Positions 45,871 through 62,529 of a DNA stretch of 63,190 nt are shown piece after piece. Numbering within the stretch: position 1 is the first letter of the stretch; the number at the start of each line of letters is the position of its first letter. The notes beneath the pieces were generated by a model. It did not search any database and had not been told where the DNA came from. It was given only the letters and a program-made list of their open reading frames with translations. The stretch lies in IMG/VR virus record IMGVR_UViG_3300042691_045055, positions 1 through 63,190 of that record, one strand, 5' to 3'. This DNA is from a virus. A program made the translations under genes and the position numbers.

Positions 45871-45887
45871 TACTTGAAAGGATAATT

Positions 45888-46433
45888 ATGCAAACGATAA
45901 CTCTCAACGAATGGGAGCCATGGGAGCACATGAAGTTTGATGGTAGTGGAACTCATTCGGACTATGACGCTATCGAAATAGGTGCATTGGACGGAGAAAC
46001 TACTAAAGTTTTAGCTAGAAATTTCAAGAGAGTTTTTGTAATTGACCCTTGGGACGGAAGACAACAAGGTGTAGTTCAAAAATATGACATATGGAAAAAT
46101 AATACTAAAGAATTTAAAAACGTATTTCATGTTAGAACGGGTTCAGAAACTCAAGAAGCTAGAAACTTTTTAGCTAGTATAAAAGATTGGAATTTAGGAT
46201 TTGTTTACGTTGATGGTTTACATACAGCAGAGGCTGTAGTTAATGATATTAATCTTGTTTTTCCTTATTCAAACAACAAAACAAAAATCATGGTTGATGA
46301 TGTAGAATATCCTCCTGTTCAAATAGGCTGCAATCAAGCATTCATTCAATTAGCCCCAAAAATATTATTTGAAAAAATTATAAAATCTTCTTTGCACCCT
46401 AGGATAAAATGGATTTATGGAGTAAACAATTAA
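45888..46433 (+). CDS. class I SAM-dependent methyltransferase (Methyltransf_24-like)
   Basis: A 181-residue protein. YDAIEIGALDGETTKVLARN gives the Rossmann glycine motif, VFVIDPWDG the acidic end of strand 2, and FVYVDGLHTAEAVVNDINLV and KIMVDDVEYPPVQIG the late motifs typical of small-molecule or sugar methyltransferases. I start at the ATG at 45888 with an SD (AAAGGA), not at the earlier in-frame codon at 45813 inside the GT10 gene. It is one of four methyltransferases in the cassette; probable glycan O-methylation. Confidence 0.75.
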   Translation: MQTITLNEWEPWEHMKFDGSGTHSDYDAIEIGALDGETTKVLARNFKRVFVIDPWDGRQQGVVQKYDIWKNNTKEFKNVFHVRTGSETQEARNFLASIKDWNLGFVYVDGLHTAEAVVNDINLVFPYSNNKTKIMVDDVEYPPVQIGCNQAFIQLAPKILFEKIIKSSLHPRIKWIYGVNN

Positions 46434-46438
46434 AAATT

Positions 46439-47119
46439 ATGAAATATCTTACTTATACTAATAGTGGATGTATAGATTTGTGCAGAAATATGGTAACTTC
46501 TCTTAAACAAGTAGGAGTAGATGCAAAAAATATTTCAATACATTGCTTTGATAAAATTAGTATGAAGTCTTTAGCAGATCTTGATTGTCAGCTTTATACA
46601 TGGAAAGAATTGTCGGATGATTTAACAGATTACCAAGAATGGTCTTTTGATCCATCGTCAAGTTTTTCTAAAATTGTAAGTTGGAAATGGAAAATAATTA
46701 AAAATTTTTATAACAATAATAAGGAATTCATTTTCACAGACACCGATATTGTATACAAAAAGAATGTTGAAAATGATTTAAAAAGTTACGGTAAAAACAT
46801 ATGCATTCAATGCGATACACCTGGTTCTCTTTACTGTACAGGATTTATGTATTTTAAAGAATCACCTGAGGCTACAACCATAATAAATTCATGTGCTAAT
46901 AACCATATGGATGATCAAATAATATTTAACAGAAATGTAAATGAATTAGGTTTGCGTGATAAAATATGTTTATTACCTCAGGACAAATATCCGAATGGAC
47001 ATGTATTCTATAAAACAGAAATCGATAAATCAAACATAGCGATCATACACAACAATCATATGCTCGGTAAAGAAAATAAAATTAATATGTTTAAAAAATA
47101 TGGAAATTGGTTTGTATGA
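46439..47119 (+). CDS. putative GT-A glycosyltransferase
   Basis: A 226-residue protein. FIFTDTDIVYKKN at about residues 98-110 is a D-x-D metal-binding motif in a hydrophobic strand context. SLYCTGFMYFKES and HMDDQIIFNRN resemble the acceptor side of nucleotide-diphospho-sugar transferases. The ATG at 46439 is preferred over the upstream in-frame start at 46409. Family not assigned with confidence. Confidence 0.6.
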   Translation: MKYLTYTNSGCIDLCRNMVTSLKQVGVDAKNISIHCFDKISMKSLADLDCQLYTWKELSDDLTDYQEWSFDPSSSFSKIVSWKWKIIKNFYNNNKEFIFTDTDIVYKKNVENDLKSYGKNICIQCDTPGSLYCTGFMYFKESPEATTIINSCANNHMDDQIIFNRNVNELGLRDKICLLPQDKYPNGHVFYKTEIDKSNIAIIHNNHMLGKENKINMFKKYGNWFV

Positions 47120-47946
47120 TACCAGATGTTTATCGCCCCTGTCCAAAATATCCAACATATCCTCCATATCATGAGGGTCTGTATTTAGAAGATTATTTCT
47201 ACGAATGGTCTAAAAATAAATCTTTTAATAGAATTTACATTCCTATTTTTTGGACCACCTTGTATTGCGATAACCATCCAATCAATATTCAACATGTTCT
47301 TAATAGATTAGATCCAAATAAAAAGTATTTTACAGTTTGTCAGCACGATGATGCTCCTCGCGAGCGTTTGCCAAAAGATACTTTGGTATTTTCTGCGGGT
47401 GGAAACGTCATAAATGAACAAACAGTAGCGATACCTTTAATCTGCTCCGAGATTAAAAATCCCAATCCCGCACAACAAAAACAGTTTTTTTGTTCTTTTA
47501 TAGGATCCGTAACACATCCAATCAGGGAAAAAATGATATCATGTTTGAAAGGTAAAAACGATTATGTTTTGTCGTATCAAAACTGGACTCCATCGGTTCA
47601 GTCTAAACAATTCGAGCATTTTAAAACTGTAACCGAGAATAGTGTGTTTTGCTTGTGTCCTAGAGGATACGGAAAGAGTAGTTTTAGGTTATACGAAGCA
47701 ATGCAACTAGGTGCGATACCAGTTTACATTAGCAATCATCATTATCTTCCATGGACCGATGAATTGGATTGGAACAGCTTTTCGGTGCTTGTAAAGGAAA
47801 ATGAAATACAAAATATAGATCAAATATTGAAAAGCATTTCACAACAAGAAATAATTAGCAAGCAAAACAAGATAAATGAATTGTATAAAAAGTATTTTAA
47901 TCTAAACGGTATCTGTAATCAAATAATGAAAAGGGTGAATGAATGA
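47116..47946 (+). CDS. exostosin-like (GT47-type) glycosyltransferase
   Basis: A 276-residue protein. FCSFIGSVTHPIREKMISCL and VFCLCPRGYGKSSFRLYEAM, followed by Q-L-G-A-I-P-V-Y-I, are the hallmark C-terminal motifs of exostosin/GT47 proteins. I start at the ATG at 47116, an ATGA overlap with the previous gene, rather than the TTG at 47107. Confidence 0.72.
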   Translation: MIPDVYRPCPKYPTYPPYHEGLYLEDYFYEWSKNKSFNRIYIPIFWTTLYCDNHPINIQHVLNRLDPNKKYFTVCQHDDAPRERLPKDTLVFSAGGNVINEQTVAIPLICSEIKNPNPAQQKQFFCSFIGSVTHPIREKMISCLKGKNDYVLSYQNWTPSVQSKQFEHFKTVTENSVFCLCPRGYGKSSFRLYEAMQLGAIPVYISNHHYLPWTDELDWNSFSVLVKENEIQNIDQILKSISQQEIISKQNKINELYKKYFNLNGICNQIMKRVNE

Positions 47947-48683
47947 AAAAATTTTTATTGGTTGTGGCAAATTATAAAGATCAACGCCAAGAAATATTTG
48001 AAAAATACTATTCTCCTAGAAACAAGGAATTTTGCCAAAAACATGGTTATGAATATATTGTATCTAAAGGAATTGAAATATTTCGTTCAAATCCAACATG
48101 GTGGAAGTTTACTGTTCCTTTAGATTTAATAGATAGAGGTATAGTCAATCAAGGTGACGTAATACTTCATCTTGATGCAGATATGATTATAAAAAATACT
48201 GATTTAGAATATCCTCATCAAAAGAATTTTACTTATTGTATTGACAATGGAAATTCACATTGCATGGGAAATTATTCTATTCGTGTAACAGAGTGGACAA
48301 GAAATATGTTTAAAAATATCTTGGACGAAAAACTTTGGAATGACTGTAAAGACACGGAATTATGGCAACTGTGGCGTGAACAAGCAGCTTGGTACACGTT
48401 AGCTGGAGTTCCTAGACACAGTTGGATTGATTATAGAATTATGCCACACAAAGGTTGGCATCAAACTCAGGATGAATTTTTTAAAAATAAAGTAAAATAT
48501 TCTTTACATGAACTGTATAATAATGTAGAAGTTCTCGGTCCAGAGTGGAACTCTACGATACTATCAGAAGATAAAGATACTATTCCAGATGGAATTTTTC
48601 AATACAATATAGCAAGAAGTAAAAGAGATAACTGCATTATAAGACATTTTGCTGCTGGTCAAGCATGGAGATTGGATTATTGA
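47943..48683 (+). CDS. GT34-like glycosyltransferase
   Basis: A 246-residue protein. The start KFLLVVANYKDQRQE, the segment FCQKHGYEYIVSKG and VILHLDADMIIKN (D-x-D near residues 76-80) fit galactosyltransferase GMA12/MNN10-type (GT34-like) proteins. WREQAAWYTLAGVP and a late R-H-F-A-A-G-Q-A-W agree with that fold. It overlaps both neighbours. Confidence 0.65.
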   Translation: MKKFLLVVANYKDQRQEIFEKYYSPRNKEFCQKHGYEYIVSKGIEIFRSNPTWWKFTVPLDLIDRGIVNQGDVILHLDADMIIKNTDLEYPHQKNFTYCIDNGNSHCMGNYSIRVTEWTRNMFKNILDEKLWNDCKDTELWQLWREQAAWYTLAGVPRHSWIDYRIMPHKGWHQTQDEFFKNKVKYSLHELYNNVEVLGPEWNSTILSEDKDTIPDGIFQYNIARSKRDNCIIRHFAAGQAWRLDY

Positions 48684-49378
48684 TGATACATTATATTATA
48701 TTATCTTGTAAAAAATTAGAGCATTTTAGAAAAATTCAAAAAATAACATGGCTTAAATATATTAACAAAGACGATACCTTTTGTTTTTTATCAGGCAAAG
48801 AACATAAAACAGAAGAAGAGAACGTTTATTGGACAGATACTACAGATGATTACCTTTCTTGTCCTAATAAATATATCGACTATATTAGAAACGGATTGAA
48901 TCAACTCGATAAAAAATGGTATTTTTTTTGTGACGATGATAGTTTTGTTTTTCCAAATAGGTTAAATGAATTACTAAAAAAATATGATTTTAACAAATCA
49001 CATATAGTAATGAATCCTAATCCATATGAAAAACCAGACGATCCTAAAAATACAAGATATTCTAATTTTGTAGAAACTGGTGAAACTTTTTATCCAAATA
49101 TATCTCCTTTAGGTGGAGGAGGTTTTGCTATAAGCAGATTCGCTATGATTAATATGATTAATTATCTAAAAAATACTATCAATCCAGCTATTTGTGTAAA
49201 TAGTGACAGAGCTATTGCTCACTGGTTATCTGCTTCAGGTTTAAAGCAAAATGATATGATATTTAACTATTTTTTATACAATGATGCACCAAATGACTTA
49301 CAAATAAAAGATTCAAGGTTTATTAGCTTTCATCGTGTTTCTTTAGATAAAATGGTTTCTTATTGCAATTTAATATAA
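48683..49378 (+). CDS. GT31/Fringe-like glycosyltransferase
   Basis: A 231-residue protein. ITWLKYINKDDTFCFLSG, then WYFFCDDDSFVFPNRLNELL (D-D-D near residues 80-84) and PLGGGGFAISRFAMINMI, form the order seen in Fringe/galactosyltransferase-like enzymes: D-D-D for metal, then G-G-A-G-type segment. The ATG at 48683 overlaps the previous stop (TGATG). Confidence 0.65.
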   Translation: MIHYIILSCKKLEHFRKIQKITWLKYINKDDTFCFLSGKEHKTEEENVYWTDTTDDYLSCPNKYIDYIRNGLNQLDKKWYFFCDDDSFVFPNRLNELLKKYDFNKSHIVMNPNPYEKPDDPKNTRYSNFVETGETFYPNISPLGGGGFAISRFAMINMINYLKNTINPAICVNSDRAIAHWLSASGLKQNDMIFNYFLYNDAPNDLQIKDSRFISFHRVSLDKMVSYCNLI

Positions 49379-49391
49379 AATTGAGAATAAA

Positions 49392-50264
49392 ATGAAAAAA
49401 ATAAAAATAGCATACTCTGATTTTTGGTACCCATTCGATCCTAAAAATACATTTTATAATGAATTGTTAAAATTTTTAGGTTATGAAGTGGAAATTGTGG
49501 ACTTAAAACAATCTCCTAATATTTTATTTTATTCTTGCTATACACATGACCATAGAATGGTAGACAGAAGCAGAACCAAAAAAATATTTGTTACTGGAGA
49601 AAATGTTCGTCCAAATTTTAATGAATGTGATTATTCTATTTCTTTCGACTTTCCCGATTATGGTGGTAAAAATATCCGTTTACCTCTATGGCTATTTCAA
49701 ATTGATTGGTTTAATAAAGAAAATTATACCAATCCAGAATATGTTATCCCACAAGACAAATTGTATGAAAACGATTGGATGAAAAAACAAAAAACAAAGT
49801 TTTGTTGTATAGTTTTTAATACATATTCTCATTATCGAGCAGAGATGATTGAAAAATTAAGTAGATACAAAAAGGTTGATTGTTATGGTAAACCTTTTGG
49901 TAACTGGTTTTATGGAGAAAAAAATAAAATAAACGTTCTTTCAGATTATAAATTTAATATTTGTTTTGAAAATAGTTTGTATCCAGGTTATTACACAGAA
50001 AAACCCATACACTCAAAAACAGCAGGATGTATTCCGATTTATTGGGCAGATAAATATTGTTACAACGATTTCAATCAAGGATCTTTTTTGAATTTAAATG
50101 ATTGTAATAATAGTGTAGATTTATTGATACAGAAAATCATAGAAATGGATAGCAATCAAACTCGGTATGAAAATATGAAAAATACAAGTTTGTATAAAAA
50201 CAAGCCATCTATAGACTATGTTATTAACAGGATGAAACAAATATTATGCGAAATGCAATTGTAA
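49392..50264 (+). CDS. GT10-like glycosyltransferase, second copy
   Basis: A 290-residue protein. The C-terminal block at about residues 187-215 ([20 protein letters not shown], then [10 protein letters not shown]) is the same GT10 signature as in the gene at 45043, and the two share the order of flanking motifs. They are diverged paralogues or separately acquired. The donor is probably a GDP- or related sugar, unproven. Confidence 0.75.
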
Positions 50265-51304
50265 CTGGATCAGCTGGTTTAGTTGGAAGCCAAGCAGTAA
50301 AATTTTTATCCGAAAAAGGATTTAAAGTTATTGGTATTGATAATGGAATGCGCAAATATTTTTTTGGTGAAAATGCTTCCACAGACAATACTAAAAAATA
50401 TTTAATTTCAAATATTGAAAACTACGTTCATCATAGCGTGGATATTAGAGATGCCGCTGAAATCGATAAGATATTCGAAACCCATGCGTCAGAGTGTGAT
50501 ATAATTGTACATACAGCGGCGCAACCATCTCATGATTGGGCAGCAAGAGAGCCATTTACAGACTTTTCTGTGAATGCCATAGGCACCTTAAATTTATTAG
50601 AATCTACTAGAAAGTATTGTCCTAGTGCTACTTTTATTTTTACATCAACCAATAAGGTGTATGGAGATCGTCCTAATTTTTTGCCAATTGTTGAAATGAA
50701 AACTCGATACGAGTGTTTAGTAGATAATAATCCTTATTCTATTGATGAAAATTTTTCAATAGATCAAAGCAAGCATTCGCTTTTTGGAGCTTCTAAAGTA
50801 GCGGCTGATATTTTATGTCAAGAATATGGTAGATATTTTGGATTGAAAACTGGAATATTTCGTGGCGGTTGTTTAACTGGACCAGACCATGCTGGAGCTG
50901 AATTGCATGGTTTTTTATCTTATTTGGTAAAATGTGTGGTTCATGATAAACCTTACACAATATTTGGATATAAAGGTAAACAAGTTCGTGACAATATTCA
51001 TAGTCAAGATATTTTAAATATGTTCTGGGAATTTCATCTTAATCCTAAATGTGGAGAAGTTTATAATATTGGTGGTGGTCGTGACAATTCATGTTCAATA
51101 TTGGAGGCAATAGATAAGATTAACATTTATGCAAATAAAAAATGGAATTTATATTCAATAAACGAACAAAACAGAATAGGCGATCACATTTGGTATATTA
51201 CAGATTTAACAAAATTTAAAAAACACTATCCAAATTGGAATATTAATATCTCTTTAGATAACATAATACAAGAGATGGTTAATAAGGAGTTGAAAGTTGG
51301 TTGA
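50246..51304 (+). CDS. NAD-dependent sugar epimerase, CDP-paratose 2-epimerase-like
   Basis: A 352-residue extended [19 protein letters not shown] has the G-x-x-G-x-x-G dinucleotide site; [16 protein letters not shown] and [20 protein letters not shown] are typical of the CDP-paratose 2-epimerase (tyvelose-type) group. The catalytic Y-x-x-x-K position reads F180-G-A-S-K184, that is, Phe instead of Tyr; this may be a trait of the subfamily. It overlaps the preceding GT10 gene by 19 bases. Exact substrate unknown. Confidence 0.75.
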
Positions 51305-51968
51305 AACTAAAACATATATTATTCACTGTAAAAAACTTATTGATCGTAAAAAACATATGTTAGAACAGATGCTTTCAAATGAATTTACAAACTATGAATT
51401 TTATGAAGAGTACGATGCAGATGAATTGAATGAAAATTTTATAAAAGATATTTACAATACAGACGTAAATATGCAAAAATATAAAATGAAGCTATGGTCT
51501 TCTGGTGGAACTGCTAGAATTCTTAGAAGAGAAGAAGTTTCATTGACTTATAAATTTTATAAAGTTTTTGAAAAGATTGCATTTGGACAAGACGAATCTG
51601 CTATCATTTTTGAGGATGATGTGATTTTATCTTCTGATTTTGAGTCTTCTTTCAAGATGTATTGCACGGAACTTCCAAGCGATTATGATGCTGTATTTTT
51701 TGGTAGTGGTGCTAATTTACACATACAAACTGAAGATCAAAAACATTGTTACAAGAAAAGTCACCCGGCTACTAGATGTGCTGATTCTTTTATGATAACA
51801 AAAAAAGCGTGTCAGCAATTGGTAAAAACTTATTTACCTTTTTCTTTGTGTTCCGACTGGGAAATAGCTTGGCAAATGGCGAGACACAATCAAAATATAT
51901 ATTGGTTTGAACCATCTCTAGTTAAACAAGGATCTGAAACAGGTCTTTTTCAATCAACACTTAGATAA
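51297..51968 (+). CDS. GT25-like glycosyltransferase, second copy
   Basis: A 223-residue protein. [20 protein letters not shown] at the start and [13 protein letters not shown] at about residues 103-115 follow the GT25 pattern also seen at 44424. [20 protein letters not shown] near the C-terminus also fits. It starts with TTG at 51297, supported by AAGGAG seven bases upstream within the previous gene. Confidence 0.7.
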
Positions 51969-51976
51969 AATATATT

Positions 51977-53065
51977 ATGAAAAAGAAAATAGCTTTTTTG
52001 AAATTTGCTGGTCTAGCTTCAGGTGGAATTGAAAAATATCTTCAAACTATGGCTGTAGTTTTGAAGAAAAATGGACATGATGTTGATTATTATTATACAA
52101 ACGCCGCACCGTTCATAAACAGCGATTTCGTTCATCCGCCAAACGACGAGAATCGTCGTCAATATCTTTTAAACAATAACATATCGACTTACGAAATTAA
52201 GGTTGGTTATAAAAACGGTGGAACAATTCCGTATACATGGCACGATACGAATATATGGGATGTATTTGATCCTTCTAAATATGATTTTATTCAAACTGGT
52301 CGAGCAGGATATCCTGAATATCCGTTTACTGAAATAAAAAACACAAAAATCGTAGATAGTATCCATGGACCTTGGGTACACAAACAAGAAAATATAGTTC
52401 ATTCTATATTGTTGTGTAAATGGCAACTAGATCAATGGGTATCGAATGGAGGAGATGTTTCAAAAACAACTATCATACCATCTTTAGTTTATGTTCCACC
52501 AATAAAATCAAGTAATTTGAGACAAAAATACAATCTGAAAGATAAATTTATTTACGGAATACATCAAAGAAACGATCCTGGTATTTTTTCACCTGCTAAT
52601 TTACAGGCTTATAAAAATATTTCTAATGACAATAATTGTTTTGTAATACTAGGAGGTTCTAACAAACATAGAGAATATGTAGCTGCTAATAAAATTCCAA
52701 ATGTTTATTTTGAAGATTTTAGTTCAGATGTTAATCAGATACATGATTTTTTAGAAGGTATAGATGTTTATGCTCACGCTCGTAATGGTGGTGAAGTGTG
52801 CTCTGCCTCAATAGTAGAAGCTATGTATCATGGAAAACCAGTTATAAGCATACCTGGAAAGGATATGGGACATTTAGAACAAATTGACGGTTGTGGAAAA
52901 ATGTGTTACAATTTACAAGAATATATGTCTGAAATGGTTATATTGGAAAAAAGCAGACAGTATTACGTTTTAAAATCGTCACAAACAAAACAAAAATACA
53001 AAGAAAAGTATGATTTTAATAAGATAGAAAAAGATATAGTTGATTTATATGAAACTTTAACATAA
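51977..53065 (+). CDS. GT4-family (GT-B) glycosyltransferase
   Basis: A 362-residue protein. AFLKFAGLASGGIEKYLQTM is the Gly-rich N-terminal loop of GT4 enzymes. The C-terminal domain contains DVYAHARNGGEVCSASIVEA, then MYHGKPVISIPG, at about residues 259-295, with the E-x7-E catalytic motif (E-V-C-S-A-S-I-V-E). Retaining transferase, donor not predicted. Confidence 0.82.
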   Translation: MKKKIAFLKFAGLASGGIEKYLQTMAVVLKKNGHDVDYYYTNAAPFINSDFVHPPNDENRRQYLLNNNISTYEIKVGYKNGGTIPYTWHDTNIWDVFDPSKYDFIQTGRAGYPEYPFTEIKNTKIVDSIHGPWVHKQENIVHSILLCKWQLDQWVSNGGDVSKTTIIPSLVYVPPIKSSNLRQKYNLKDKFIYGIHQRNDPGIFSPANLQAYKNISNDNNCFVILGGSNKHREYVAANKIPNVYFEDFSSDVNQIHDFLEGIDVYAHARNGGEVCSASIVEAMYHGKPVISIPGKDMGHLEQIDGCGKMCYNLQEYMSEMVILEKSRQYYVLKSSQTKQKYKEKYDFNKIEKDIVDLYETLT

Positions 53066-53074
53066 AGGATTTTT

Positions 53075-53614
53075 ATGCCAGTAGACAATGATGGTGTTGA
53101 TTTTAAAAAATGGAAACAAAATTGCACAGTACTTATTGAAACAGGCACGGCATTCGGAGATGGTATATCTTCAGCTCTTTGTGCGGGAATTGAAAAGATT
53201 TATTCTATTGAATTACAACCAGATCTTCATCGAAATGCAGTTGATAAATTTAAAGACAACAAAAATGTAGAAATCATTTACGGAAATTCTATGGATGTGC
53301 TTCCGTCTTTGATAGAAAAAACAAAAAATGAATCTGTTTTGTTTTGGTTAGATGCTCATTGGTCAGGAAGCGAGTTTGCTGGTGAGATGATGAATGTTTT
53401 TCTTCCTAAAGAATTGGATTCTATAGAAAAGCATATTTCTGTAAGAAACAACAGAAATATAGTTATTATGATAGATGATATGAATTTTTACGAACACGAC
53501 ACCGCATTCAAAAATACAATTGAAGAAAAACTTAAAAAAATAATTCCAGAATGTAATTTGTCTTACTATAAATCTTCAGGTAATAATCATATTATATTAG
53601 TAGCTTATAAATGA
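53075..53614 (+). CDS. class I methyltransferase-like protein
   Basis: A 179-residue protein. TVLIETGTAFGDGISSALCA, IYSIELQPDLHRNAVDKF and VEIIYGNSMDVLPSLIE make a Rossmann core of SAM-dependent methyltransferases (G-x-G-like loop, acidic end of strand 2, then a G-N-S/D motif). VLFWLDAHWSG and IVIMIDDMNFYE follow the pattern seen in the 45888 gene. SD AAAGGA. The ATGA overlap with the next gene suggests coupling. Confidence 0.7.
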   Translation: MPVDNDGVDFKKWKQNCTVLIETGTAFGDGISSALCAGIEKIYSIELQPDLHRNAVDKFKDNKNVEIIYGNSMDVLPSLIEKTKNESVLFWLDAHWSGSEFAGEMMNVFLPKELDSIEKHISVRNNRNIVIMIDDMNFYEHDTAFKNTIEEKLKKIIPECNLSYYKSSGNNHIILVAYK

Positions 53615-54321
53615 AATACTGTTTTGATTTAGATGAAACCATATGCGCTACTCCAGCTTCTCGTAAATATGCAGAGGCGGTTCCATACATTAAAGTTGTA
53701 TCTGCAATAAATGATTTATATGATCAAGGTAATGAGATAACAATATTCACAGCTCGTGGAGGCAGTTCTGGTATAGATTACACAGAACTGACTCACAATC
53801 AACTGCAATCTTGGGGATTAAAGTATCATAAATTAATACTTAAAAAACCAAGTTACGACTATTTTATAGACGACAAAGCCATAAATAGTGTTGATTGGCG
53901 AAATAAAAACAACATTAAAATAGTGGGTTTTGTTGCTAGTTGTTTTGATTTGTTGCATGCAGGACATTGTTTATATTTGAAAGAAGCAAAATCATATTGT
54001 GATCATCTTGTAGCAGGTCTTCATGTTGATCCTAGCAATGAAAGAGCGAACAAAAATAAACCTATACAAAGTTTGGAAGAAAGAAAAATACAGTTAGAGT
54101 CTACAAAATATGTTGATGAAATTTTGATTTATAATACAGAACAAGAATTGGAAAATTTAATAAAACAAGTAAAACCAGACGTTCGTTTTTTAGGTAGCGA
54201 TTGCCAAGATAAAAAAATTACAGGATATGAGTATTGTAAAAATATAATTTATCACAATAGAGCAAATCATATATGGTCTTCGAGTGAATTAAGAACAAGG
54301 ATAAAAAATGACATTAGATGA
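53611..54321 (+). CDS. fused HAD phosphatase-like and HxGH cytidylyltransferase-like enzyme
   Basis: A 236-residue two-domain protein. Residues 1-100 are HAD-like: D6-x-D8-E-T10, T-A-R-G near 47-50 and a distal FIDDKA near 85-90. Residues about 103-236 are a nucleotidyltransferase: F-V-A-S-C-F-D-L-L-H-A-G-H with the HxGH motif at 116-119, a TKYVDEIL segment, and an ending WSSSELR resembling the I-S-T-T-x-I/R-x motif. The second domain resembles TagD and the HldE C-terminal domain. Beside GmhA-like and HddA-like genes, the fusion could remove the C7 phosphate and then activate heptose-1-phosphate; that pathway role is inferred. Confidence 0.75.
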   Translation: MKYCFDLDETICATPASRKYAEAVPYIKVVSAINDLYDQGNEITIFTARGGSSGIDYTELTHNQLQSWGLKYHKLILKKPSYDYFIDDKAINSVDWRNKNNIKIVGFVASCFDLLHAGHCLYLKEAKSYCDHLVAGLHVDPSNERANKNKPIQSLEERKIQLESTKYVDEILIYNTEQELENLIKQVKPDVRFLGSDCQDKKITGYEYCKNIIYHNRANHIWSSSELRTRIKNDIR

Positions 54322-55000
54322 AAAAATTGATGAAATAATGATGATGGTTGATAACGCTCCAGAAAAAACTTCTGAATACGACTTCCATAGAACTTATTTT
54401 TCAAAAGTATTACCTAAAGTTCAAATAGATGGAATGTGGACGGAATTTGGTGTTTATCGCGGAAGATCTATAAAAACAATATCAACTTACGCTAGTAAAA
54501 AAAATGCAATTGTTTATGGTTTTGATAGCTTTGAAGGGTTACCAGAATTTTGGGACAAGGACAACCCTAAAGGTTGTTATGGATTGGCTGGAAAAATTCC
54601 AGATGGTATTATTGATGATAGATTTCCAGATGCCGATACAGGTATGTTTAATAGTGGACCAACAAGAAGAATGCTTCCGTGGCCAAGCAACGTTAAACTT
54701 GTAAAAGGTTTATTTGAAGATACCTTAGATGGATTTTTAAATGAACATAAAGATACAGTTGCGTATGTTCACATCGATTCTGATATTTATAGTGCCGCAA
54801 AAACAGTATTGACTAAATTGAAAGATAGAATAGTAGTAGGTACAGTATTAGATTTTGATGAAATTTGCGATTATCCTGATTACAGAAATCATGAAATTAA
54901 AGCTTTTGCTGAGTATTTGCTTGACACAAATAGAAAAGTATCACCAATATGCAGTCAGAGGTTGGGTTATAGTCAATGTAGTTTTATTGTAACAGAATAA
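54308..55000 (+). CDS. TylF/MycF-like O-methyltransferase
   Basis: A 230-residue protein. MWTEFGVYRGRSIKTISTYA and VYGFDSFEGLPEFW are the TylF-family start, and VAYVHIDSDIYSAAKTVLTK with a following GTVLDFDEICDYPDYRNHEI holds the metal-binding acidic residues of sugar O-methyltransferases such as MycF. It overlaps the previous gene and precedes the GmhA-like gene. Probable methylation of a sugar hydroxyl. Confidence 0.82.
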   Translation: MTLDEKIDEIMMMVDNAPEKTSEYDFHRTYFSKVLPKVQIDGMWTEFGVYRGRSIKTISTYASKKNAIVYGFDSFEGLPEFWDKDNPKGCYGLAGKIPDGIIDDRFPDADTGMFNSGPTRRMLPWPSNVKLVKGLFEDTLDGFLNEHKDTVAYVHIDSDIYSAAKTVLTKLKDRIVVGTVLDFDEICDYPDYRNHEIKAFAEYLLDTNRKVSPICSQRLGYSQCSFIVTE

Positions 55001-55029
55001 ACAATGAACTATAATGAATTGAGAATTTT

Positions 55030-55602
55030 ATGAAAAAACAATTTGTAATTAATTATTTGAACGAAGTAAAAATGATATGCGATTCTATTTCAATTGAAAA
55101 TATACTTGAATTTTCAATACAAATAGAAAATATTAAAAATAAAAACGGAAGAATATTTTTTCTAGGAGTCGGAGGAAGCGCTGGAAATGCTTCACATGCT
55201 GTAAACGACTTTAGAAAAATATTAGGAATTGAATCTTATGCTGTAACCGATAATGTTTCAGAATTAACAGCTAGAATCAATGATGAAGGTTGGGATGTTT
55301 CTTATGTGAATTTTTTGAAAGCTTCTCGACTTTCAAAAAATGATGCTATTATGATATTTTCTGTAGGTGGTGGTTCTTCAACCACTTCAATTAATTTAGT
55401 GAAGGCTATGGAATATGCCAAAGAAACAGGAACAACTGTTCTATCAATCGTAAGTAGAGATGGTGGAGCAGCTAAGTCTATGTCGGATGTATGCGTGCTC
55501 GTTCCTGTGATAGATCAAAGTAGAATAACTCCACACGCCGAAGAATGGCAAGCAATATTGTGGCACCTTTTGGTTTCAATGATAAAGGAATCTAAATCAT
55601 GA
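55030..55602 (+). CDS. gmhA: SIS-domain phosphoheptose isomerase (GmhA-like)
   Basis: A 190-residue protein (E. coli GmhA is 192). FLGVGGSAGNASHAVNDF at about residues 45-61 and IFSVGGGSSTTSINLVKAME are the two SIS phosphate-binding loops, and RITPHAEEWQAILWHLLVSM is the C-terminal active-site helix seen in GmhA-type isomerases (Glu/His pair). GmhA turns sedoheptulose-7-phosphate into glycero-manno-heptose-7-phosphate, the first committed step of heptose synthesis. The nearby transaldolase, which can form sedoheptulose-7-phosphate, and an HddA-like kinase support this role. Confidence 0.82.
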   Translation: MKKQFVINYLNEVKMICDSISIENILEFSIQIENIKNKNGRIFFLGVGGSAGNASHAVNDFRKILGIESYAVTDNVSELTARINDEGWDVSYVNFLKASRLSKNDAIMIFSVGGGSSTTSINLVKAMEYAKETGTTVLSIVSRDGGAAKSMSDVCVLVPVIDQSRITPHAEEWQAILWHLLVSMIKESKS

Positions 55603-56336
55603 TTAAAAATTTAAAAGTTGGCACGATGCGAGATTCATTAGCCCAAAGAGACAATGAAATATACGATTATTTAAAACAATTAGAATCTAAAAAGGGCAGA
55701 AAATTGTCAATATTGGATGTTGGTGGTGGTTGTAGCATTAGACTTCCAAACACCACCCACGTTTTAGATTTTTTACCTCTTAGAGACGCAGCAAAAGATC
55801 AGAATGTTTCTTTGTTTTTAGGAAACATAGATTTGACTGACGGTTGGACAGAAGTTTTTGAGTATGTTAAACAAAATGGAAAATTCGATTTTGTTGTTTG
55901 TAGCCACACACTTGAAGACATAAATTCATCCGAACAAGTTATATTAAATCTGTTCAAAGTTGCCGATGCAGGCATGATTGCTCTTCCCACCAAATACATT
56001 GAAACCATACACTGGGAGACTTATTATCTTCAACAGCCATATATGGGATACGGACATCATAAATGGATTTATACCGTAAAAAACAATACTCTTTACGCAT
56101 ATCCTAAAATGGGACACATGGAGTATGTAAAATTTAATTTTTCAGGTTTACAAGAATATTTAAAAAGATATTCTAATCAGCAGACTGAAATGACCTTTTT
56201 GTGGGAAAACGATTTTTCATTTAAATTTGTACAACCATTTCAATATTTGAATCATTTTGAGCTGACAGAAACAAAACAGTCTGCGTACTTAGATTTGATG
56301 GAAAAGGATGATGTTTGTAAACTTTTTGTGGGGTAA
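55599..56336 (+). CDS. SAM-dependent methyltransferase-like protein
   Basis: A 245-residue protein. KLSILDVGGGCSIRLPNTTH, then VLDFLPLRDA, gives the Rossmann glycine loop and the strand-2 acidic residue; FDFVVCSHTLEDINSSEQVI is the motif before strand 5 typical of methyltransferase fold proteins. The C-terminal half is family-specific. It overlaps the GmhA-like gene by ATGA. Substrate unknown; a sugar intermediate of the cassette is likely. Confidence 0.65.
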   Translation: MIKNLKVGTMRDSLAQRDNEIYDYLKQLESKKGRKLSILDVGGGCSIRLPNTTHVLDFLPLRDAAKDQNVSLFLGNIDLTDGWTEVFEYVKQNGKFDFVVCSHTLEDINSSEQVILNLFKVADAGMIALPTKYIETIHWETYYLQQPYMGYGHHKWIYTVKNNTLYAYPKMGHMEYVKFNFSGLQEYLKRYSNQQTEMTFLWENDFSFKFVQPFQYLNHFELTETKQSAYLDLMEKDDVCKLFVG

Positions 56337-56341
56337 TAAAT

Positions 56342-57049
56342 ATGAAAATTAAAATTTATGCTGATGGATCTGATTACGATCAGATTGTAAATATTTACAA
56401 CAACAGATTCACAAACAACATACATGGCTTTACAACGAATCCAACCTTGATGTGTAAAGCCGGAGTTTCCGACTACTTGGAATTCGCTAAAAAAGTTTTA
56501 ATGGTAGTAAAAGAATCTCCAATATCTTTTGAAGTTTTTGCCGATGATTTTAATGAAATGCATAGACAGGCACTTATACTTTCAAAATTGGCGCCAAACG
56601 TATATGTAAAGATACCAGTAATGAACACTCAAAAACAGACATCTTATAATATTATACGAGAATTGTCTGATTTGGGAGTCAAGTTGAACGTTACAGCAGT
56701 ATTTACAATAGATCAAATTAATGAAATATATAAGTGCTTAAATCCAAAAATAAATTCTATTGTTTCAATTTTCGGAGGAAGAATTGCAGATACTGGTGTA
56801 AATCCAGAAATTAGTATTATTCATGCCGTAAAAAATAGACCTTCTTCTAATATTGAAGTTTTATGGGCATCACCAAGAGAAGTTTACAATATATATCAAG
56901 CCGACTCTATAAACTGTGATATAATTACAGTCACGCCAGATCTTATCAAGAAGTTTATTGAGCTTCAAGGTAAAGATCTAGAGGAATACTCTCTAGAAAC
57001 AGTAAAAATGTTTTACAATGATGCCTGCAGAGCTGGATTTAAATTATGA
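56342..57049 (+). CDS. transaldolase (short TalC/FSA-like)
   Basis: A 235-residue TIM-barrel aldolase. KIYADGSDYDQI, then IHGFTTNPTLMCKAG, is the N-terminal transaldolase signature (F-T-T-N-P-T). The Schiff-base lysine is Lys90 in VYVKIPVMN, and KLNVTAVFTIDQI follows. Short transaldolases are known cyanophage auxiliary metabolic genes; here the position between gmhA-like and hddA-like genes suggests supply of sedoheptulose-7-phosphate to heptose synthesis. The stop overlaps the kinase start. Confidence 0.88.
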   Translation: MKIKIYADGSDYDQIVNIYNNRFTNNIHGFTTNPTLMCKAGVSDYLEFAKKVLMVVKESPISFEVFADDFNEMHRQALILSKLAPNVYVKIPVMNTQKQTSYNIIRELSDLGVKLNVTAVFTIDQINEIYKCLNPKINSIVSIFGGRIADTGVNPEISIIHAVKNRPSSNIEVLWASPREVYNIYQADSINCDIITVTPDLIKKFIELQGKDLEEYSLETVKMFYNDACRAGFKL

Positions 57050-58023
57050 TAATTTCTAGAACTCCTTTTCGAATGACTCTTGGTGGAGGAGGTACAGATT
57101 TACCTTCTTTTTATAAAAAACATGGTGGGTTTGTTGTATCAATGGCCATCGACAAGCACTGTTACATAACCTTCAAACCAAATGTATTTGATAGTTCTTT
57201 GATACTCAGATACTCTGAAAATGAAAAAGTAAAAAATATTTCAGAATTAAAAAATACACGAGCGCGAGAAGTGCTTCTTCGTCATGGAATAACCTCTGCA
57301 GAAATTTGTAGTATTGCAGATTTACCAACAAATACTGGACTAGGTTCATCTGGTAGTTTTTTGGTTGGAATGATAAACACTTTAAGAGAATACAAACGAA
57401 TCAGTCAGCATCCAACCGAAATAGCTGAAGAAGCTTGTGATATTGAAATTAACAAGTTGAACGAACCAGTTGGCAAACAAGATCAATATATTGCCTCTTA
57501 TGGTGGACTAAAAACATTAACTATTGATACATATGGAAATGTTAATGTCAAAAACGTAAATGTTTCTCACACAAACTTCAGTTTGTTTTTATCAAATATT
57601 CAAGTTTATTATTTGAATGTACAGAGAAACGCTTCGGATGTATTAAAAGAACAATCAAAAATGAAATCTAGCACCGAAGATTTACTGCTTAAAATAAAAG
57701 ATTATGGATATCAAACACTTGACATAATTGAAAATCAAAATTTTGATCAATATGGATTATTGATGCATGATTATTGGGAATTAAAGAAAAAATTATCTTC
57801 TAACATCTCAATAAACACAGTGGACATTCTTTACGAAGAACTTCGTAAAAACTATAACGTTCTTGGTGGTAAAATAATCGGAGCTGGCGGTGGTGGATTT
57901 TTTATGGTTTATGTATACAAGAATCATAAAAAATTAGAAGAATACATGAATAGTATTGGATATTCTAAACTTGAATTTTCTGTAGATTATAATGGATCCA
58001 AAATATTGGGAAATTATATATGA
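57046..58023 (+). CDS. hddA: GHMP-family heptose-7-phosphate kinase (HddA-like)
   Basis: A 325-residue protein. ISRTPFRMTLGGGGTDLPSF is the signature N-terminus of HddA-type sugar kinases, LPTNTGLGSSGSFLVG the GHMP ATP loop (P-x-x-x-G-L-G-S-S), and VLGGKIIGAGGGGFFMVY the C-terminal GHMP motif. HddA phosphorylates C1 of D-glycero-alpha-D-manno-heptose-7-phosphate. A related fucose/other sugar kinase is a less likely alternative. It overlaps both the transaldolase and the epimerase by ATGA. Confidence 0.85.
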   Translation: MIISRTPFRMTLGGGGTDLPSFYKKHGGFVVSMAIDKHCYITFKPNVFDSSLILRYSENEKVKNISELKNTRAREVLLRHGITSAEICSIADLPTNTGLGSSGSFLVGMINTLREYKRISQHPTEIAEEACDIEINKLNEPVGKQDQYIASYGGLKTLTIDTYGNVNVKNVNVSHTNFSLFLSNIQVYYLNVQRNASDVLKEQSKMKSSTEDLLLKIKDYGYQTLDIIENQNFDQYGLLMHDYWELKKKLSSNISINTVDILYEELRKNYNVLGGKIIGAGGGGFFMVYVYKNHKKLEEYMNSIGYSKLEFSVDYNGSKILGNYI

Positions 58024-58913
58024 AATGTTTGGTTACTGGTGGTAATGGTTTTATTGGATCGCACGTCGTTGATCGATTGATTAACAACGGTCACGAAGTA
58101 ATTGTTATTGATGATTTATCAGGATTAAACGATAAATTTTATTACAATCAAAAAGCTTTGTATTACAGTGAAAACATATGCAATTACGATTTTCTTCTCA
58201 AAGCATGTAAAAATATAGACTTAATTTTTCACCTAGCAGCCGAATCTAGAATTCAACCAGCAATCGAAAATCCTTTGTTGGCTGTACAAACCAATATGGT
58301 TGGAACTGCTAATGTTCTTCAGGCAGCTAGATTAAATGGAGTTAAGCGAGTTGTATATTCTTCAACATCTTCAGTTTATGGTTTGAATGAAAATTTACCA
58401 ACAGACGAAACTACACCTGTTGATTGTTTGAATCCATATTCTACCACAAAATATGGAGGAGAAGAATTGTGTCGAATGTACAGCAAACTTTACAATTTAG
58501 ATACATGTATTTTTAGATATTTTAATGTTTACGGTGAAAGATCTCCCACAAAAGGACTTTACAGTCCTGTTATTGGTTTGTTTATAAAACAAAATAAAGA
58601 AGAAAATAAATTACACATTATGGGTAATGGGTTGCAAAGACGTGATTTTATACATGTTGCTGATGTGGCTGATATCAATATTAAAGCAGCTTTCCATGAA
58701 TCTAATGTGAACGGAGAAACATTCAATATTGGGTTTGGAGAAAATCATTCGATTCAAGAGATAGCAAAAAACATAAATTCAAACATCGAGTATCATCCAC
58801 CTAGAGTAGGTGAAGCTAAAAATACTTTGGCTGACATTACCAAAGTTAAGAAATTTTTTGATTGGAAACCACAAATTAATTTGTGGACTTGGTTATCGAA
58901 TCAATTAAAATAA
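58020..58913 (+). CDS. NAD-dependent UDP-sugar 4-epimerase-like (GalE-type SDR)
   Basis: A 297-residue extended SDR. KCLVTGGNGFIGSHVVDRLI holds the G-x-x-G-x-x-G site and VIVIDDLSG the NAD-selective acidic residue. The catalytic set is intact: SSTSSVYG and Y140-x-x-x-K144 in NPYSTTKYGGEEL. RYFNVYGERSP and RRDFIHVADVADINIKAA are typical for UDP-glucose/GlcNAc 4-epimerases. It could make UDP-galactose for the mutase gene that follows. Confidence 0.85.
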   Translation: MKCLVTGGNGFIGSHVVDRLINNGHEVIVIDDLSGLNDKFYYNQKALYYSENICNYDFLLKACKNIDLIFHLAAESRIQPAIENPLLAVQTNMVGTANVLQAARLNGVKRVVYSSTSSVYGLNENLPTDETTPVDCLNPYSTTKYGGEELCRMYSKLYNLDTCIFRYFNVYGERSPTKGLYSPVIGLFIKQNKEENKLHIMGNGLQRRDFIHVADVADINIKAAFHESNVNGETFNIGFGENHSIQEIAKNINSNIEYHPPRVGEAKNTLADITKVKKFFDWKPQINLWTWLSNQLK

Positions 58914-58916
58914 TTT

Positions 58917-60008
58917 ATGAATTATGATTATTTAATAGTGGGATCTGGATTGTTCGGATCTGTTTTTGCTCGCGAAATGACAGACAAAGGAGCAAAATGT
59001 TTAGTTATAGACAAAAGAAATTTTGTCGGAGGCAACTGTAGAACAACCGATGTAAATGGAATTCATGTTCACGAATATGGACCTCACATATTTCACACTA
59101 GCAGCAAAAGAATATGGGATTACGTGAATAAGTATGCTAATTTCAATAGATTTGTTTATAGACCAAAGGTTATATACAAAAATAAATTATATTCTTTTCC
59201 CATAAATCTGATGACTCTTTATCAAATTTGGGATGTAAAAACTCCAGAGGAGGCTCAGAAAAAAATAAATTCTGTTAAAAAGAATATAGAAAATCCAAAG
59301 AATTTAGAAGAATGGATTGTTTCTCAAGTTGGAGAGGAATTATATCATATTTTTGTGTATGGTTACACTAAAAAACAATGGAACTGCCATCCAAATCAAT
59401 TGCCAGTTTCAATTATAAAGAGGCTACCAATACGTTTAAACTACGATGACAATTACTTTGAAGATAATTATCAAGGAATACCCGAAGAAGGTTATTCTAA
59501 AATATTTGAAAATTTATTAAAAAATGTAACGGTTTTGACAAACGTAGACTATTTTCAAGATAAAGATTATTGGAATAAAAAAGCTAAAAAAGTAGTGTAT
59601 ACCGGAGCAATAGATGAATTTTTTGATTATGAGTATGGTAATTTAAAGTGGAGAAGTTTGAAATTTGAACACGAACATTTAAATATTTCAGATTATCAAG
59701 GAAATGCTGTAATTAATTACACTGAAGAAAGTGTACCTTATACTCGAATAACCGAACACAAACATTTCACATTTGGCAGACAAAACAACACGGTAATAAC
59801 AAAAGAATATCCACAAGAATGGGATAAAAGCAAAGAAAAATTTTATCCATTGAATGACGAAATAAACAACGAATTATATAAAAAATATAAACAAAAAATA
59901 AATAATGAAAAATTTATTTTTGGTGGAAGATTGGCGGATTACAAATATTATGACATGCATCAAGTCATAGGATCTGCTATAGCGGCTAGTGAAAAGGAAA
60001 GCTTGTAG
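58917..60008 (+). CDS. glf: UDP-galactopyranose mutase
   Basis: A 363-residue flavoenzyme (bacterial UGM about 367-390). YLIVGSGLFGSVFAREMTDK is the FAD-binding G-x-G-x-x-G, FVGGNCRTTDVNGIHVHEYG the conserved substrate-site start, and PHIFHTSSKRIWDYVNKYAN and YGYTKKQWNCHPNQLP are UGM signatures. ITEHKHFTFGRQNNTVITKE near the C-terminus also fits. It converts UDP-Galp to UDP-Galf, a sugar absent from most virion glycans described so far. Confidence 0.93.
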   Translation: MNYDYLIVGSGLFGSVFAREMTDKGAKCLVIDKRNFVGGNCRTTDVNGIHVHEYGPHIFHTSSKRIWDYVNKYANFNRFVYRPKVIYKNKLYSFPINLMTLYQIWDVKTPEEAQKKINSVKKNIENPKNLEEWIVSQVGEELYHIFVYGYTKKQWNCHPNQLPVSIIKRLPIRLNYDDNYFEDNYQGIPEEGYSKIFENLLKNVTVLTNVDYFQDKDYWNKKAKKVVYTGAIDEFFDYEYGNLKWRSLKFEHEHLNISDYQGNAVINYTEESVPYTRITEHKHFTFGRQNNTVITKEYPQEWDKSKEKFYPLNDEINNELYKKYKQKINNEKFIFGGRLADYKYYDMHQVIGSAIAASEKESL

Positions 60009-60009
60009 T

Positions 60010-61047
60010 ATGAAATCTTTAATTTTATCATTAGATCAAAATATGTCTAATATTTTTAATTATTTTCTATGTGATGAAAAAGATACAATACACAATTTTA
60101 TTATCAACGATTCAAACGAACAGACTTTAAAATTATACAATAAAAATTCTTGTTTAGTAAACGAAAATTCTCTTTTATCTGAATATGATTTTGTTTTTAT
60201 GTTTTTAGAACCTCTTCATTTTGTTGACAATCACATGTATACAAAATGGTTGCCAAGCGGAAATACAGTTATAAAATCTTCAGCTAGCACAACAATCGAA
60301 GATTATAGAAACAATTGTAGAAAATACAAAAATATTTTAAGTAAAATAAAATATTCAAAAATTATAATAGTTGACACTAGCGACCGGTCAATATACAAGG
60401 ATGGTGGTTTCGAATTTATTAGATCTAATATATGTTCACAAATAGATTTAATTTTAAAAAGAGAATATAGAAGAACTTACGAATATTCATACAAAAAAGA
60501 AAATGTTAAACCATTTCCATATATGACATTTTCATCCGAACATGTGAAAAAATTTTATATCGATCCTTATCATGAAAAAAATATCCATGGAAGATTAAAC
60601 TGCTCAACTTGGGCAGGTGCTGAACTGTATCGAGTTGAATTAGGTCTTCGAGACGAATGGGTTAATAGATATTACATGCTGCGTGCAATAGAAAAATTAG
60701 ATAATAGCATAGTTAAAGTAAATTTGCCACGCGATCAATACATGGAATGTTTTAAAAAATTCAAAATGTTTATACATTTAAACGGAACTGGACATTTGTG
60801 TCATCGTTTTTTTGAAGGATTATCTACAGACACTTTGATGCTGTGGCAAGAAAATGATGTTATACTACCAAGTTCTTTTCATGAACTTTGTGTTTTTGAA
60901 CATCCAGAAGAATACGCACATAAAGTAAATATCTTAAAAACAAATGTTTACGCTTTCAATGAAGCATATGCACATCAGAGAGAATTGATAAAAAAATATT
61001 TTAATCAAAAATATATAAAAGATTTTATTTTTAATTCTTTAAAGTGA
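60010..61047 (+). CDS. putative glycosyltransferase, last gene of glycan cassette
   Basis: A 345-residue protein; the ATG at 60010 is one base after the glf stop, preferred to an in-frame start at 59989 inside glf. I recognise no clear family. FKMFIHLNGTGHLCHRFFEG, then LSTDTLMLWQ, resembles the acceptor/donor site layout of exostosin-like GT-B enzymes (F-E-x-L). With a cassette position after the mutase, a Galf or other transferase role is a guess. Confidence 0.5.
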   Translation: MKSLILSLDQNMSNIFNYFLCDEKDTIHNFIINDSNEQTLKLYNKNSCLVNENSLLSEYDFVFMFLEPLHFVDNHMYTKWLPSGNTVIKSSASTTIEDYRNNCRKYKNILSKIKYSKIIIVDTSDRSIYKDGGFEFIRSNICSQIDLILKREYRRTYEYSYKKENVKPFPYMTFSSEHVKKFYIDPYHEKNIHGRLNCSTWAGAELYRVELGLRDEWVNRYYMLRAIEKLDNSIVKVNLPRDQYMECFKKFKMFIHLNGTGHLCHRFFEGLSTDTLMLWQENDVILPSSFHELCVFEHPEEYAHKVNILKTNVYAFNEAYAHQRELIKKYFNQKYIKDFIFNSLK

Positions 61048-61104: not shown

Positions 61105-62529
61105 ATGAAAATTGAACATGTAATTTTATTTAATTTAATCAAAAAAGAAGATTATGCAAGAAAGGTTCTTGCTTTTATTTCCTCTGACTATTTTTCAGAA
61201 ACATCCGAACGAAGCACATTTGAAATTGTTCGTTCGTATTTTGAAAAATACAACACATGTCCATCAATCTCTGCATTAAACATAGAAATTGATTCTTTGA
61301 CTGCAAGTCAAGCAGATCATGAAAATATGCGTGACTTGCTGAAAATTGTAGAAAATCTAAAAGACGCAAATGATGTTCAATGGGCAATCGATGCCACTGA
61401 AAAATGGTGTAAAGATCGTGCAGTTTACAATGCTATTTACAATTGCATCAAAATCATAGACGACAAAGAAGGCAAACAAAAGCTCAGTAAAAATGCCATT
61501 CCCGAATTGCTTCGTCAAGCTTTGAGTGTGAGTTTCGACACGAACATTGGACACGATTACACCGAATGTCTCAAAGAACGCTACGAATACTATCACAACG
61601 GCGAAGAAAAGATACCTTTTGATCTTTCAATGTTGAACACCATCACCGATGGTGGTGTGCCACGCAAAACCTTGAATGTAGTAGCAGCTCCCACTGGTGG
61701 TGGCAAAAGTATCTTTTTGTGTCACCATGCAGCCGCTTGCTTGCGTCAAAACAAAAATGTTCTGTATATTACACTCGAAATGAGCGAGCAGCGAATCGCC
61801 GAACGCATCGACGCAAATCTCACCAACACGCGTCTCAACGAGTTGCGTGAGTTGCCGTATCAAATGTATGAAAAGAAGTTTCAACGCGCGACACAAGAAA
61901 TTCACGGCAAGTTGATCATCAAAGAATATCCCACAGGTACAGCTAGTTCTTTGAATTTCCGGCATTTGCTAGACGAACTGCGTCTCAAAAAGAATTTTGT
62001 ACCTGATGTAGTGATTGTTGATTATTTAAACATCTGTGCTTCGGCTAGATACAAAGCAAGTGCCTCGGTAAACAGCTACACGCTTGTGAAAGCAATAGCC
62101 GAGGAATTGCGCGGTCTTGCGGTCGAAATGAATGTGCAACTGTTTACAGCCACGCAAATCAATCGTCAAGGATTCAACAACAGCGATGTGGATCTCACCA
62201 ACACAGCCGAGAGTATGGGATTGCCAGCAACTGCCGATTTCTTTATTGCTTTGATTGGCACCGAAGAACTCGAAGAACTGAATCAGGTGATGATGAAGCA
62301 ACTCAAAAATCGTCTTGGTGATGTTGGCAACAACCGCAAGTTTGTTGTGGGTCTCGACAAAAGCAAAATGAAGTTTTACGATGTAAACGCATCAGCGCAA
62401 CAAACAATTGTTCATGTCAACAGCGAAACTGGCAGAGTTGCACCCAAAGACGATCAAGATCCGTATGATGATTCGATATTCAACAAAAGCGACAAAAAAT
62501 TTCGACAAAAATTCGACGATTGGGAATAA
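61105..62529 (+). CDS. 41: replicative DNA helicase gp41 (DnaB-like)
   Basis: A 474-residue helicase (T4 gp41 is 475). The Walker A APTGGGKS is at residues 195-202; DVVIVDYLNICASARY is Walker B, and LFTATQINRQGFNN the RecA-fold motif 3 region with a downstream ESMGLPATADFFIALI. It is the hexameric replication-fork helicase. In T4 uvsX, 40 and 41 are near neighbours; here the glycan cassette separates uvsX from 41. Confidence 0.95.
   Translation: MKIEHVILFNLIKKEDYARKVLAFISSDYFSETSERSTFEIVRSYFEKYNTCPSISALNIEIDSLTASQADHENMRDLLKIVENLKDANDVQWAIDATEKWCKDRAVYNAIYNCIKIIDDKEGKQKLSKNAIPELLRQALSVSFDTNIGHDYTECLKERYEYYHNGEEKIPFDLSMLNTITDGGVPRKTLNVVAAPTGGGKSIFLCHHAAACLRQNKNVLYITLEMSEQRIAERIDANLTNTRLNELRELPYQMYEKKFQRATQEIHGKLIIKEYPTGTASSLNFRHLLDELRLKKNFVPDVVIVDYLNICASARYKASASVNSYTLVKAIAEELRGLAVEMNVQLFTATQINRQGFNNSDVDLTNTAESMGLPATADFFIALIGTEELEELNQVMMKQLKNRLGDVGNNRKFVVGLDKSKMKFYDVNASAQQTIVHVNSETGRVAPKDDQDPYDDSIFNKSDKKFRQKFDDWE

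Follow-up and report, generated by a model that had tools for sequence, protein, structure and literature searches.

A fused HAD phosphatase-like and HxGH nucleotidyltransferase-like protein in sugar cassettes of marine phages and Cyanobiaceae, with a probable link to heptose-type sugar activation

The GDP-heptose pathway runs through GmhA, HddA, GmhB and HddC. The phage cassette described here resembles it in its GmhA-like and HddA-like genes and in the order of the proposed steps, but contains a putative phosphatase of the HAD superfamily outside the GmhB family and a nucleotidyltransferase (NT) of the HxGH rather than the HddC fold. HldE and HldC have this HxGH NT fold in common with our protein, whereas the NT is joined to a PfkB kinase in HldE and to a phosphatase-like domain here. 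TagD is the best fold match of the NT half; however, the neighborhood of our gene is of the sugar type and its TagD score lies below the curated cut-off. On the phosphatase side, the HAD half is homologous to AfhF (9iqw), whose solved chain is a HAD domain alone, while our protein adds the NT domain. The EcbF/BcbF capsule phosphatases (TIGR01689) are also small HAD proteins, with a weak match to residues 3-91 (16.5 bits versus a cut-off of 162). For marine phages, the announcement of Synechococcus phage SynMITS9220M01 names heptose kinase, isomerase and epimerase genes, and the word phosphatase is absent from its text (PMC7378029). A study on pelagimyophages reports rfaE and glycosyltransferase genes, with O-chain modification against coinfection as the proposed role (PMC7029224). 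The fusion of a phosphatase with an NT was not found described in the literature searched, which reached few subscription journals.

We analyzed a virus record of 63,190 bases (its whole length is called the window below), which encodes a T4-type gp23 and a terminase. The eight nearest terminase relatives listed, at 56-57% identity, belong to Pelagibacter phage Mosig, Methylophilales phages and Synechococcus phages. The fusion gene is located inside a sugar and glycosyltransferase cassette (44424-61047), which is flanked by a RecA/UvsX-like gene (43394-44434) and a DnaB-like helicase gene (61105-62529) (Table 1). The cassette also holds a GT10-type (alpha-1,3-fucosyltransferase-like) gene (49392-50264). 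Elsewhere in the window, the ORF at 1580-3517 is large, contains a long stretch of collagen-like G-x-y repeats and probably encodes a tail fibre.

Table 1. Positions of the fusion gene, its domains and motifs, and its neighbors in the window, and of HAD-isomerase fusions in other genomes
Feature	Position	Strand	Evidence
Methyltransferase-like gene upstream of the fusion	53075..53614	+	weak matches
Fused HAD phosphatase - HxGH nucleotidyltransferase (putative), 236 aa	53611..54321	+	
HAD domain, residues 1 to about 98, AfhF/EcbF-like, cap domain not apparent	53611..53904	+	9iqw match
HAD motif I D-L-D-E-T, residues 6-10	53626..53640	+	D6, D8 85/85; T10 84/85
HAD motif IV D-D, residues 87-88	53869..53874	+	D87 84/85; D88 85/85
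NT domain, residues about 103-236	53917..54318	+	PF01467 50.2 bits; 1coz Z 17.1; 5xf2 HldC Z 14.4
HAGH motif, residues 116-119	53956..53967	+	last His replaced by Tyr in 78/85 family members
R217...S223-S224	54259..54282	+	R217, S223 85/85; 1coz alignment reaches residue 221
TylF-like methyltransferase, overlaps the end of the fusion gene	54308..55000	+	PF05711 4.5e-11
SIS isomerase, GmhA-like	55030..55602	+	TIGR00441 56 bits vs cut-off 209; GmhA structures 6.6e-10
Methyltransferase-like gene	55599..56336	+	PF13489 1.7e-4, below cut-off
Transaldolase	56342..57049	+	TIGR02134 278.2 bits vs cut-off 281.95
GHMP sugar kinase, HddA/WcbL-like	57046..58023	+	NF049969 116.4 bits vs cut-off 600; 4n3o 6.4e-24
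SDR nucleotide-sugar epimerase/dehydratase	58020..58913	+	PF01370 2e-60
UDP-galactopyranose mutase	58917..60008	+	PF03275 2.4e-77
HAD-GmhA-type isomerase fusions	L147 1492-2400; L148 1492-2391; L150 931-1872		

The fusion gene is one intact ORF, with its ATG at 53611, its stop codon at 54319-54321 and no internal stops. Codon 1 is the sole in-frame ATG; alternative starts are possible at codon 105 (GTG) and at codons 114, 115, 123, 155, 172 and 180 (TTG). The ATG shares four bases with the stop of the preceding gene and the end of the ORF reaches 14 bases into the next one, which places it within a tightly packed gene run. The initial annotation had read D-x-D-x-T, D-D and HAGH motifs in a single 236-residue chain; the intact ORF, the motifs and the profiles agree with this, and the structure prediction of both halves that had been named beforehand as a check yielded two confident domains (AlphaFold2 with an alignment of 40 fused proteins; mean pLDDT 90.0, pTM 0.81). 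PHROG 1238 matches residues 1-101 (5.7e-29) and PHROG 7878 residues 105-233 (9.5e-35). The first half carries D6-L-D8-E-T10, T47, K79-P80 and D87-D88, which we take to be the HAD superfamily signature (DxDx(T), the T/S of motif II, the K of motif III and the DD of motif IV), and thereby has the motifs of a small cap-less HAD protein. In all 85 distinct fused proteins compared, D6, D8, K79, D83, D88, D113, H116, K148, R158, R217 and S223 are invariant, and T47 is kept in 83. The R217...S223-S224 stretch is presumably the counterpart of the TagD RTEGIST motif.

These 85 proteins stem from 115 loci in marine phage contigs, one isolated Synechococcus phage and Cyanobiaceae genomes; the fusion is thus recurrent and not specific to the window. 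From IMG/VR, a protein scan contributed 34 loci and an alignment scan the best 80 of 441 relatives, a choice that skews the sample to close relatives. In a species-genome collection, four of the 22 related loci were full fusions, of which three lie in single-cell genomes of Prochlorococcus and one in an Acidimicrobiaceae MAG. On one Prochlorococcus contig (L043), the ORFs near the module read as ClpP-like and ketol-acid-reductoisomerase-like genes, so that this locus looks like host chromosome. Full fusions were detected in 5 of 251 genomes of the family Cyanobiaceae and in 2 of 292 of its phylum. Among the matches listed for 398 genomes of the SAR11 phylum we found none, and full fusions would rank at the top of such matches; the HAD domain alone occurred in 16 of 247 genomes of the SAR11 order. 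Two SAR11 loci (L056 9769-11307 and L048 10165-11688) encode HldE-like proteins in which the NT domain precedes the PfkB kinase. HldE itself has the reverse order, kinase first and NT second. In the complete genome record of SynMITS9220M01 the fusion is gp206, annotated as 'hypothetical protein'. Phages P-SSM2, S-CAM3 and P-TIM68 have the NT, a PfkB-type kinase and the HAD protein as separate genes lying close together. Some annotations in these phages deviate from our assignments: genes labeled 'phosphoheptose isomerase' in P-SSM2 (L004 7086-7430 and 7411-7767) and S-SSM7 (L141 6001-6336) belong to the HAD family described here and not to SIS, and PSSM2_312 of P-SSM2, labeled 'putative nucleotidyltransferase', is a Cupin_2 protein.

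To describe the conserved neighborhood we used the 36 of the 85 distinct fused loci whose flanks reach 6 kb or more in each direction, an 8 kb range, and queries from the window, SynMITS9220M01 and P-SSM2 (E<=1e-6). A GHMP kinase was located within 8 kb of the fusion in all 36 loci, a GmhA-like SIS gene in 34 and an SDR in 34, with all three present in 34; since SDRs are common, the SDR count is the least telling. Transaldolase (6/36) and PfkB kinase (4/36) were less frequent, and five of the six transaldolase loci carry the HxGH form. In the two exceptions (L068 and L069), SIS and SDR were not found near the fusion. A GmhA-like isomerase, a heptose-kinase-like protein, a phosphatase and an NT therefore occur together as expected for an NDP-heptose cassette, as homologs below the curated cut-offs. 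In the window, the best NCBIfam matches are heptose-related for the SIS protein (gmhA), the GHMP kinase (HddA) and the NT half (rfaE_dom_II). The first two stay below the equivalog level (56/209 and 116/600 bits), and no gene of the window set reaches a curated heptose cut-off. At positions that we take to be metal ligands, Glu and Gln of the two best GmhA-type rows are replaced in the SIS protein by Asp and Glu; this exchange makes an unusual isomerase substrate possible. A KdsD-type identity was rejected for this protein, as that family is absent from its match list.

Among solved structures, 9iqw is the closest to the HAD half (E=7.1e-18; fold comparison Z 13.0, rmsd 2.2, 94 aligned residues, 40% identity), so that homology to AfhF extends across the HAD domain. 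The entry is titled 'phage HY126 encoded D-arabinose 1,5-diphosphate phosphatase AfhF'; we take the substrate from this title, and the literature search turned up no paper on AfhF or 9iqw. The title supports a HAD half that removes the terminal phosphate of an aldose-1,omega-bisphosphate. Matches to curated families were weak and below cut-off (HAD-IIIA 21.4 bits, EcbF-BcbF 16.5 bits). No GmhB-type model was among the 13 NCBIfam families that matched the fusion at E<=0.1, a list from which HMMER filters may drop weak ones, and GmhB was rejected by family for this half. The fold-search list is dominated by the NT domain, and the lack of other HAD families there carries no meaning. Three Cyanobiaceae genomes encode a HAD domain of the same family fused to a GmhA-type isomerase, scoring 160 (L147), 165 (L148) and 93 (L150) bits for TIGR00441 (cut-off 209). 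In one SAR11 genome (L050), the HAD gene stands between the genes of an HddA-like kinase (145.8 bits) and an HddC-like transferase (94.2 bits, where HddC ranks second among 30 families), and a GmhA-like isomerase gene (84 bits) comes next; all scores are below cut-off. A SIS gene is in view at six of the 15 free-standing SAR11 HAD loci (L167, L169, L170, L176, L177 and L180), which have about 1.5 kb or less of flank. In nine genomes (L186-L189, L192-L194, L196 and L197) a member of the family is attached C-terminally to an SDR, and in one genome of the phylum sample (L183) it is attached N-terminally to a class IV aminotransferase (Pfam was checked on one fusion of each of these two types). 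By reading of the ORF, the family is also fused to an NTP-transferase-like domain in one SAR11 genome. These partners indicate that the HAD family is not heptose-specific.

Taken together, we consider it fairly probable that the fusion is a bifunctional aldose-1,omega-bisphosphate phosphatase and aldose-1-phosphate nucleotidyltransferase, and that the full chain leads to an NDP-heptose. Transaldolase would convert fructose-6-phosphate to sedoheptulose-7-phosphate, the GmhA-like isomerase would form heptose-7-phosphate and the HddA-like kinase heptose-1,7-bisphosphate. The HAD half would then strip the terminal phosphate to give heptose-1-phosphate, the NT half would couple this aldose-1-phosphate to a nucleotide, and the SDR would turn the NDP-heptose into the final sugar for the glycosyltransferases of the cassette. 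The heptose reading is favored by the HAD-GmhA fusions of Cyanobiaceae, the SAR11 row of HddA-, HddC- and GmhA-like genes and the GHMP, SIS and SDR neighbors. The title of 9iqw argues for the reaction type of the phosphatase, and the catalytic positions kept in both halves together with low dN/dS argue for a working enzyme. Additionally, the heptose genes named in the SynMITS9220M01 announcement flank the fusion in that genome (PMC7378029). The sequence data establish the two-domain architecture, the intact motifs, the fold and the conserved neighborhood; from these we infer both activities, the sugar (with heptose favored), the nucleotide, channeling and a use at the host or virion surface. 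The idea in the initial annotation of a fusion that dephosphorylates and then activates its substrate, by which intermediates could plausibly be channeled, gains from the GmhA-like, HddA-like and transaldolase neighbors; the HAD half is, however, not a GmhB by family.

The sub-cut-off matches, the residue changes in SIS, the pentose in the title of 9iqw and the varied HAD fusions speak against heptose, as do the two of 36 loci without SIS and SDR. GHMP kinases act on the alpha and HldE-type transferases on the beta anomer, which makes their combination an unusual pairing. By the same combination, of an HddA-type GHMP kinase with an HxGH transferase, the cassette differs from both textbook heptose routes. 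More tentatively, and with somewhat less than even confidence, we propose that marine phages and cyanobacteria may have a third, hybrid route to NDP-heptose, with an HddA-like kinase, an HxGH NT and an AfhF-type HAD in place of GmhB, the last two steps being fused, and with an active HxGY NT in most of the family. If the favored heptose reading is right, marine phages carry a compact route from central metabolism to an activated heptose-type sugar, and this route is common to phages and to a Prochlorococcus-type host surface-polysaccharide region. The fusion would then be a single-gene enzyme for testing channeling, the identity of the sugar that these phages add to host or virion, and whether Tyr can stand in for a catalytic His in HxGH transferases.

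The same two-step logic could serve another sugar, e.g., a pentose, and supply an NDP-pentose for surface glycans or DNA bases. This is suggested by the title of 9iqw and its 40% identity to the HAD half, by the arabinosyl-hmC known from phages (PMC6024577), and by Agathobaculum phage AB434P2, in which a HAD and kinase-like ORF lies by a related NT and a gene annotated as deoxyuridylate hydroxymethyltransferase. We regard a pentose as rather unlikely: SIS and kinase fit heptose families best, transaldolase goes with the lineage of the window, two thymidylate-synthase-fold queries had no match in the window (a fragment) or the other loci, and the neighboring UDP-galactopyranose mutase and GT10 fucosyltransferase suggest surface glycans. 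As for AB434P2 itself (L005 1314-4497), its HAD and choline-kinase-like ORF, related HxGH NT and thymidylate-synthase-fold gene may act in DNA base modification.

The NT half matches CTP_transf_like (PF01467; cut-off 21 bits) and has the HxGH motif. Its fold is closest to TagD (1coz; rmsd 2.1, 125 aligned), followed by the Fom1 cytidylyltransferase domain (Z 15.0) and HldC, and these matches do not settle its substrate. A phosphatase paired with a glycerol-3-phosphate, choline-phosphate or ethanolamine-phosphate cytidylyltransferase, the HAD half then acting on a polyol or amino-alcohol phosphate, would be in line with the top rank of TagD (Z 17.1), with human ethanolamine-phosphate cytidylyltransferase as the best PDB sequence match (9e-19) and with the tie between rfaE and TagD in the HxGY protein of SynMITS9220M01 (59.2 vs. 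58.8 bits). However, the window protein scores higher for rfaE_dom_II (TIGR02199, 81.1 bits; cut-off 181.5) than for TagD (TIGR01518, 54.4 bits; cut-off 165.4), and a sugar isomerase, a transaldolase and a GHMP sugar kinase lie alongside, which renders this explanation improbable. With regard to the HldE-type transferase that the initial annotation brought into comparison, the NT half does resemble the HldE/HldC fold; it is TagD-like too, and neither equivalog cut-off was passed.

Residue 119 is Tyr in 78 of the 85 fused proteins and His in the remaining seven, which are the window protein and six relatives from phages, while H116, G118, K148, R158, R217 and S223 remain constant. Some eukaryotic tyrosyl-tRNA synthetases of the same superfamily also have Tyr at the second His position of HxGH. 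The exchange might mean that one half has lost its catalytic activity in most family members, the HxGY NT being a scaffold or regulator and HAD alone at work; six HxGY loci (L041, L079, L085, L102, L121 and L135) add a separate PfkB kinase and a P-SSM2-type NT, whose HPGH motif was read in the L041 copy. We give this little credence, since all other NT motifs are retained and the NT half is under purifying selection; the window, with its HAGH, is outside the scope of this explanation. With 74 pairs usable for the HAD half and 85 for the NT half, the median dN/dS was 0.08 and 0.13, respectively, and the maximum 0.29. These values come from a simple method that saturates at larger distances, applied to 87 pairs at 80-97% identity that share sequences and are not independent. 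The low value of the NT half and its kept motifs point to an HxGY half that is probably functional rather than decaying. A chance juxtaposition or assembly artefact is ruled out by the 85 distinct fused proteins, which include an isolated phage and bacterial contigs.

In the NT tree, built on few columns, the seven HxGH halves fall together with five NTs that phages encode as free-standing proteins (99/90), and the 78 HxGY halves make up a separate group (95/84). This topology could arise if fusion occurred twice, if a single fusion was later split again, or if the NT domain was exchanged. The HAD tree, which includes 28 of the 78 HxGY rows, lacks the resolution to decide among these histories. 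In it, the HAD halves of two proteins with HPGY in the NT half (L068 7278-7982 and L069 6312-7016) stand beside the HxGH group, which suggests domain swapping.
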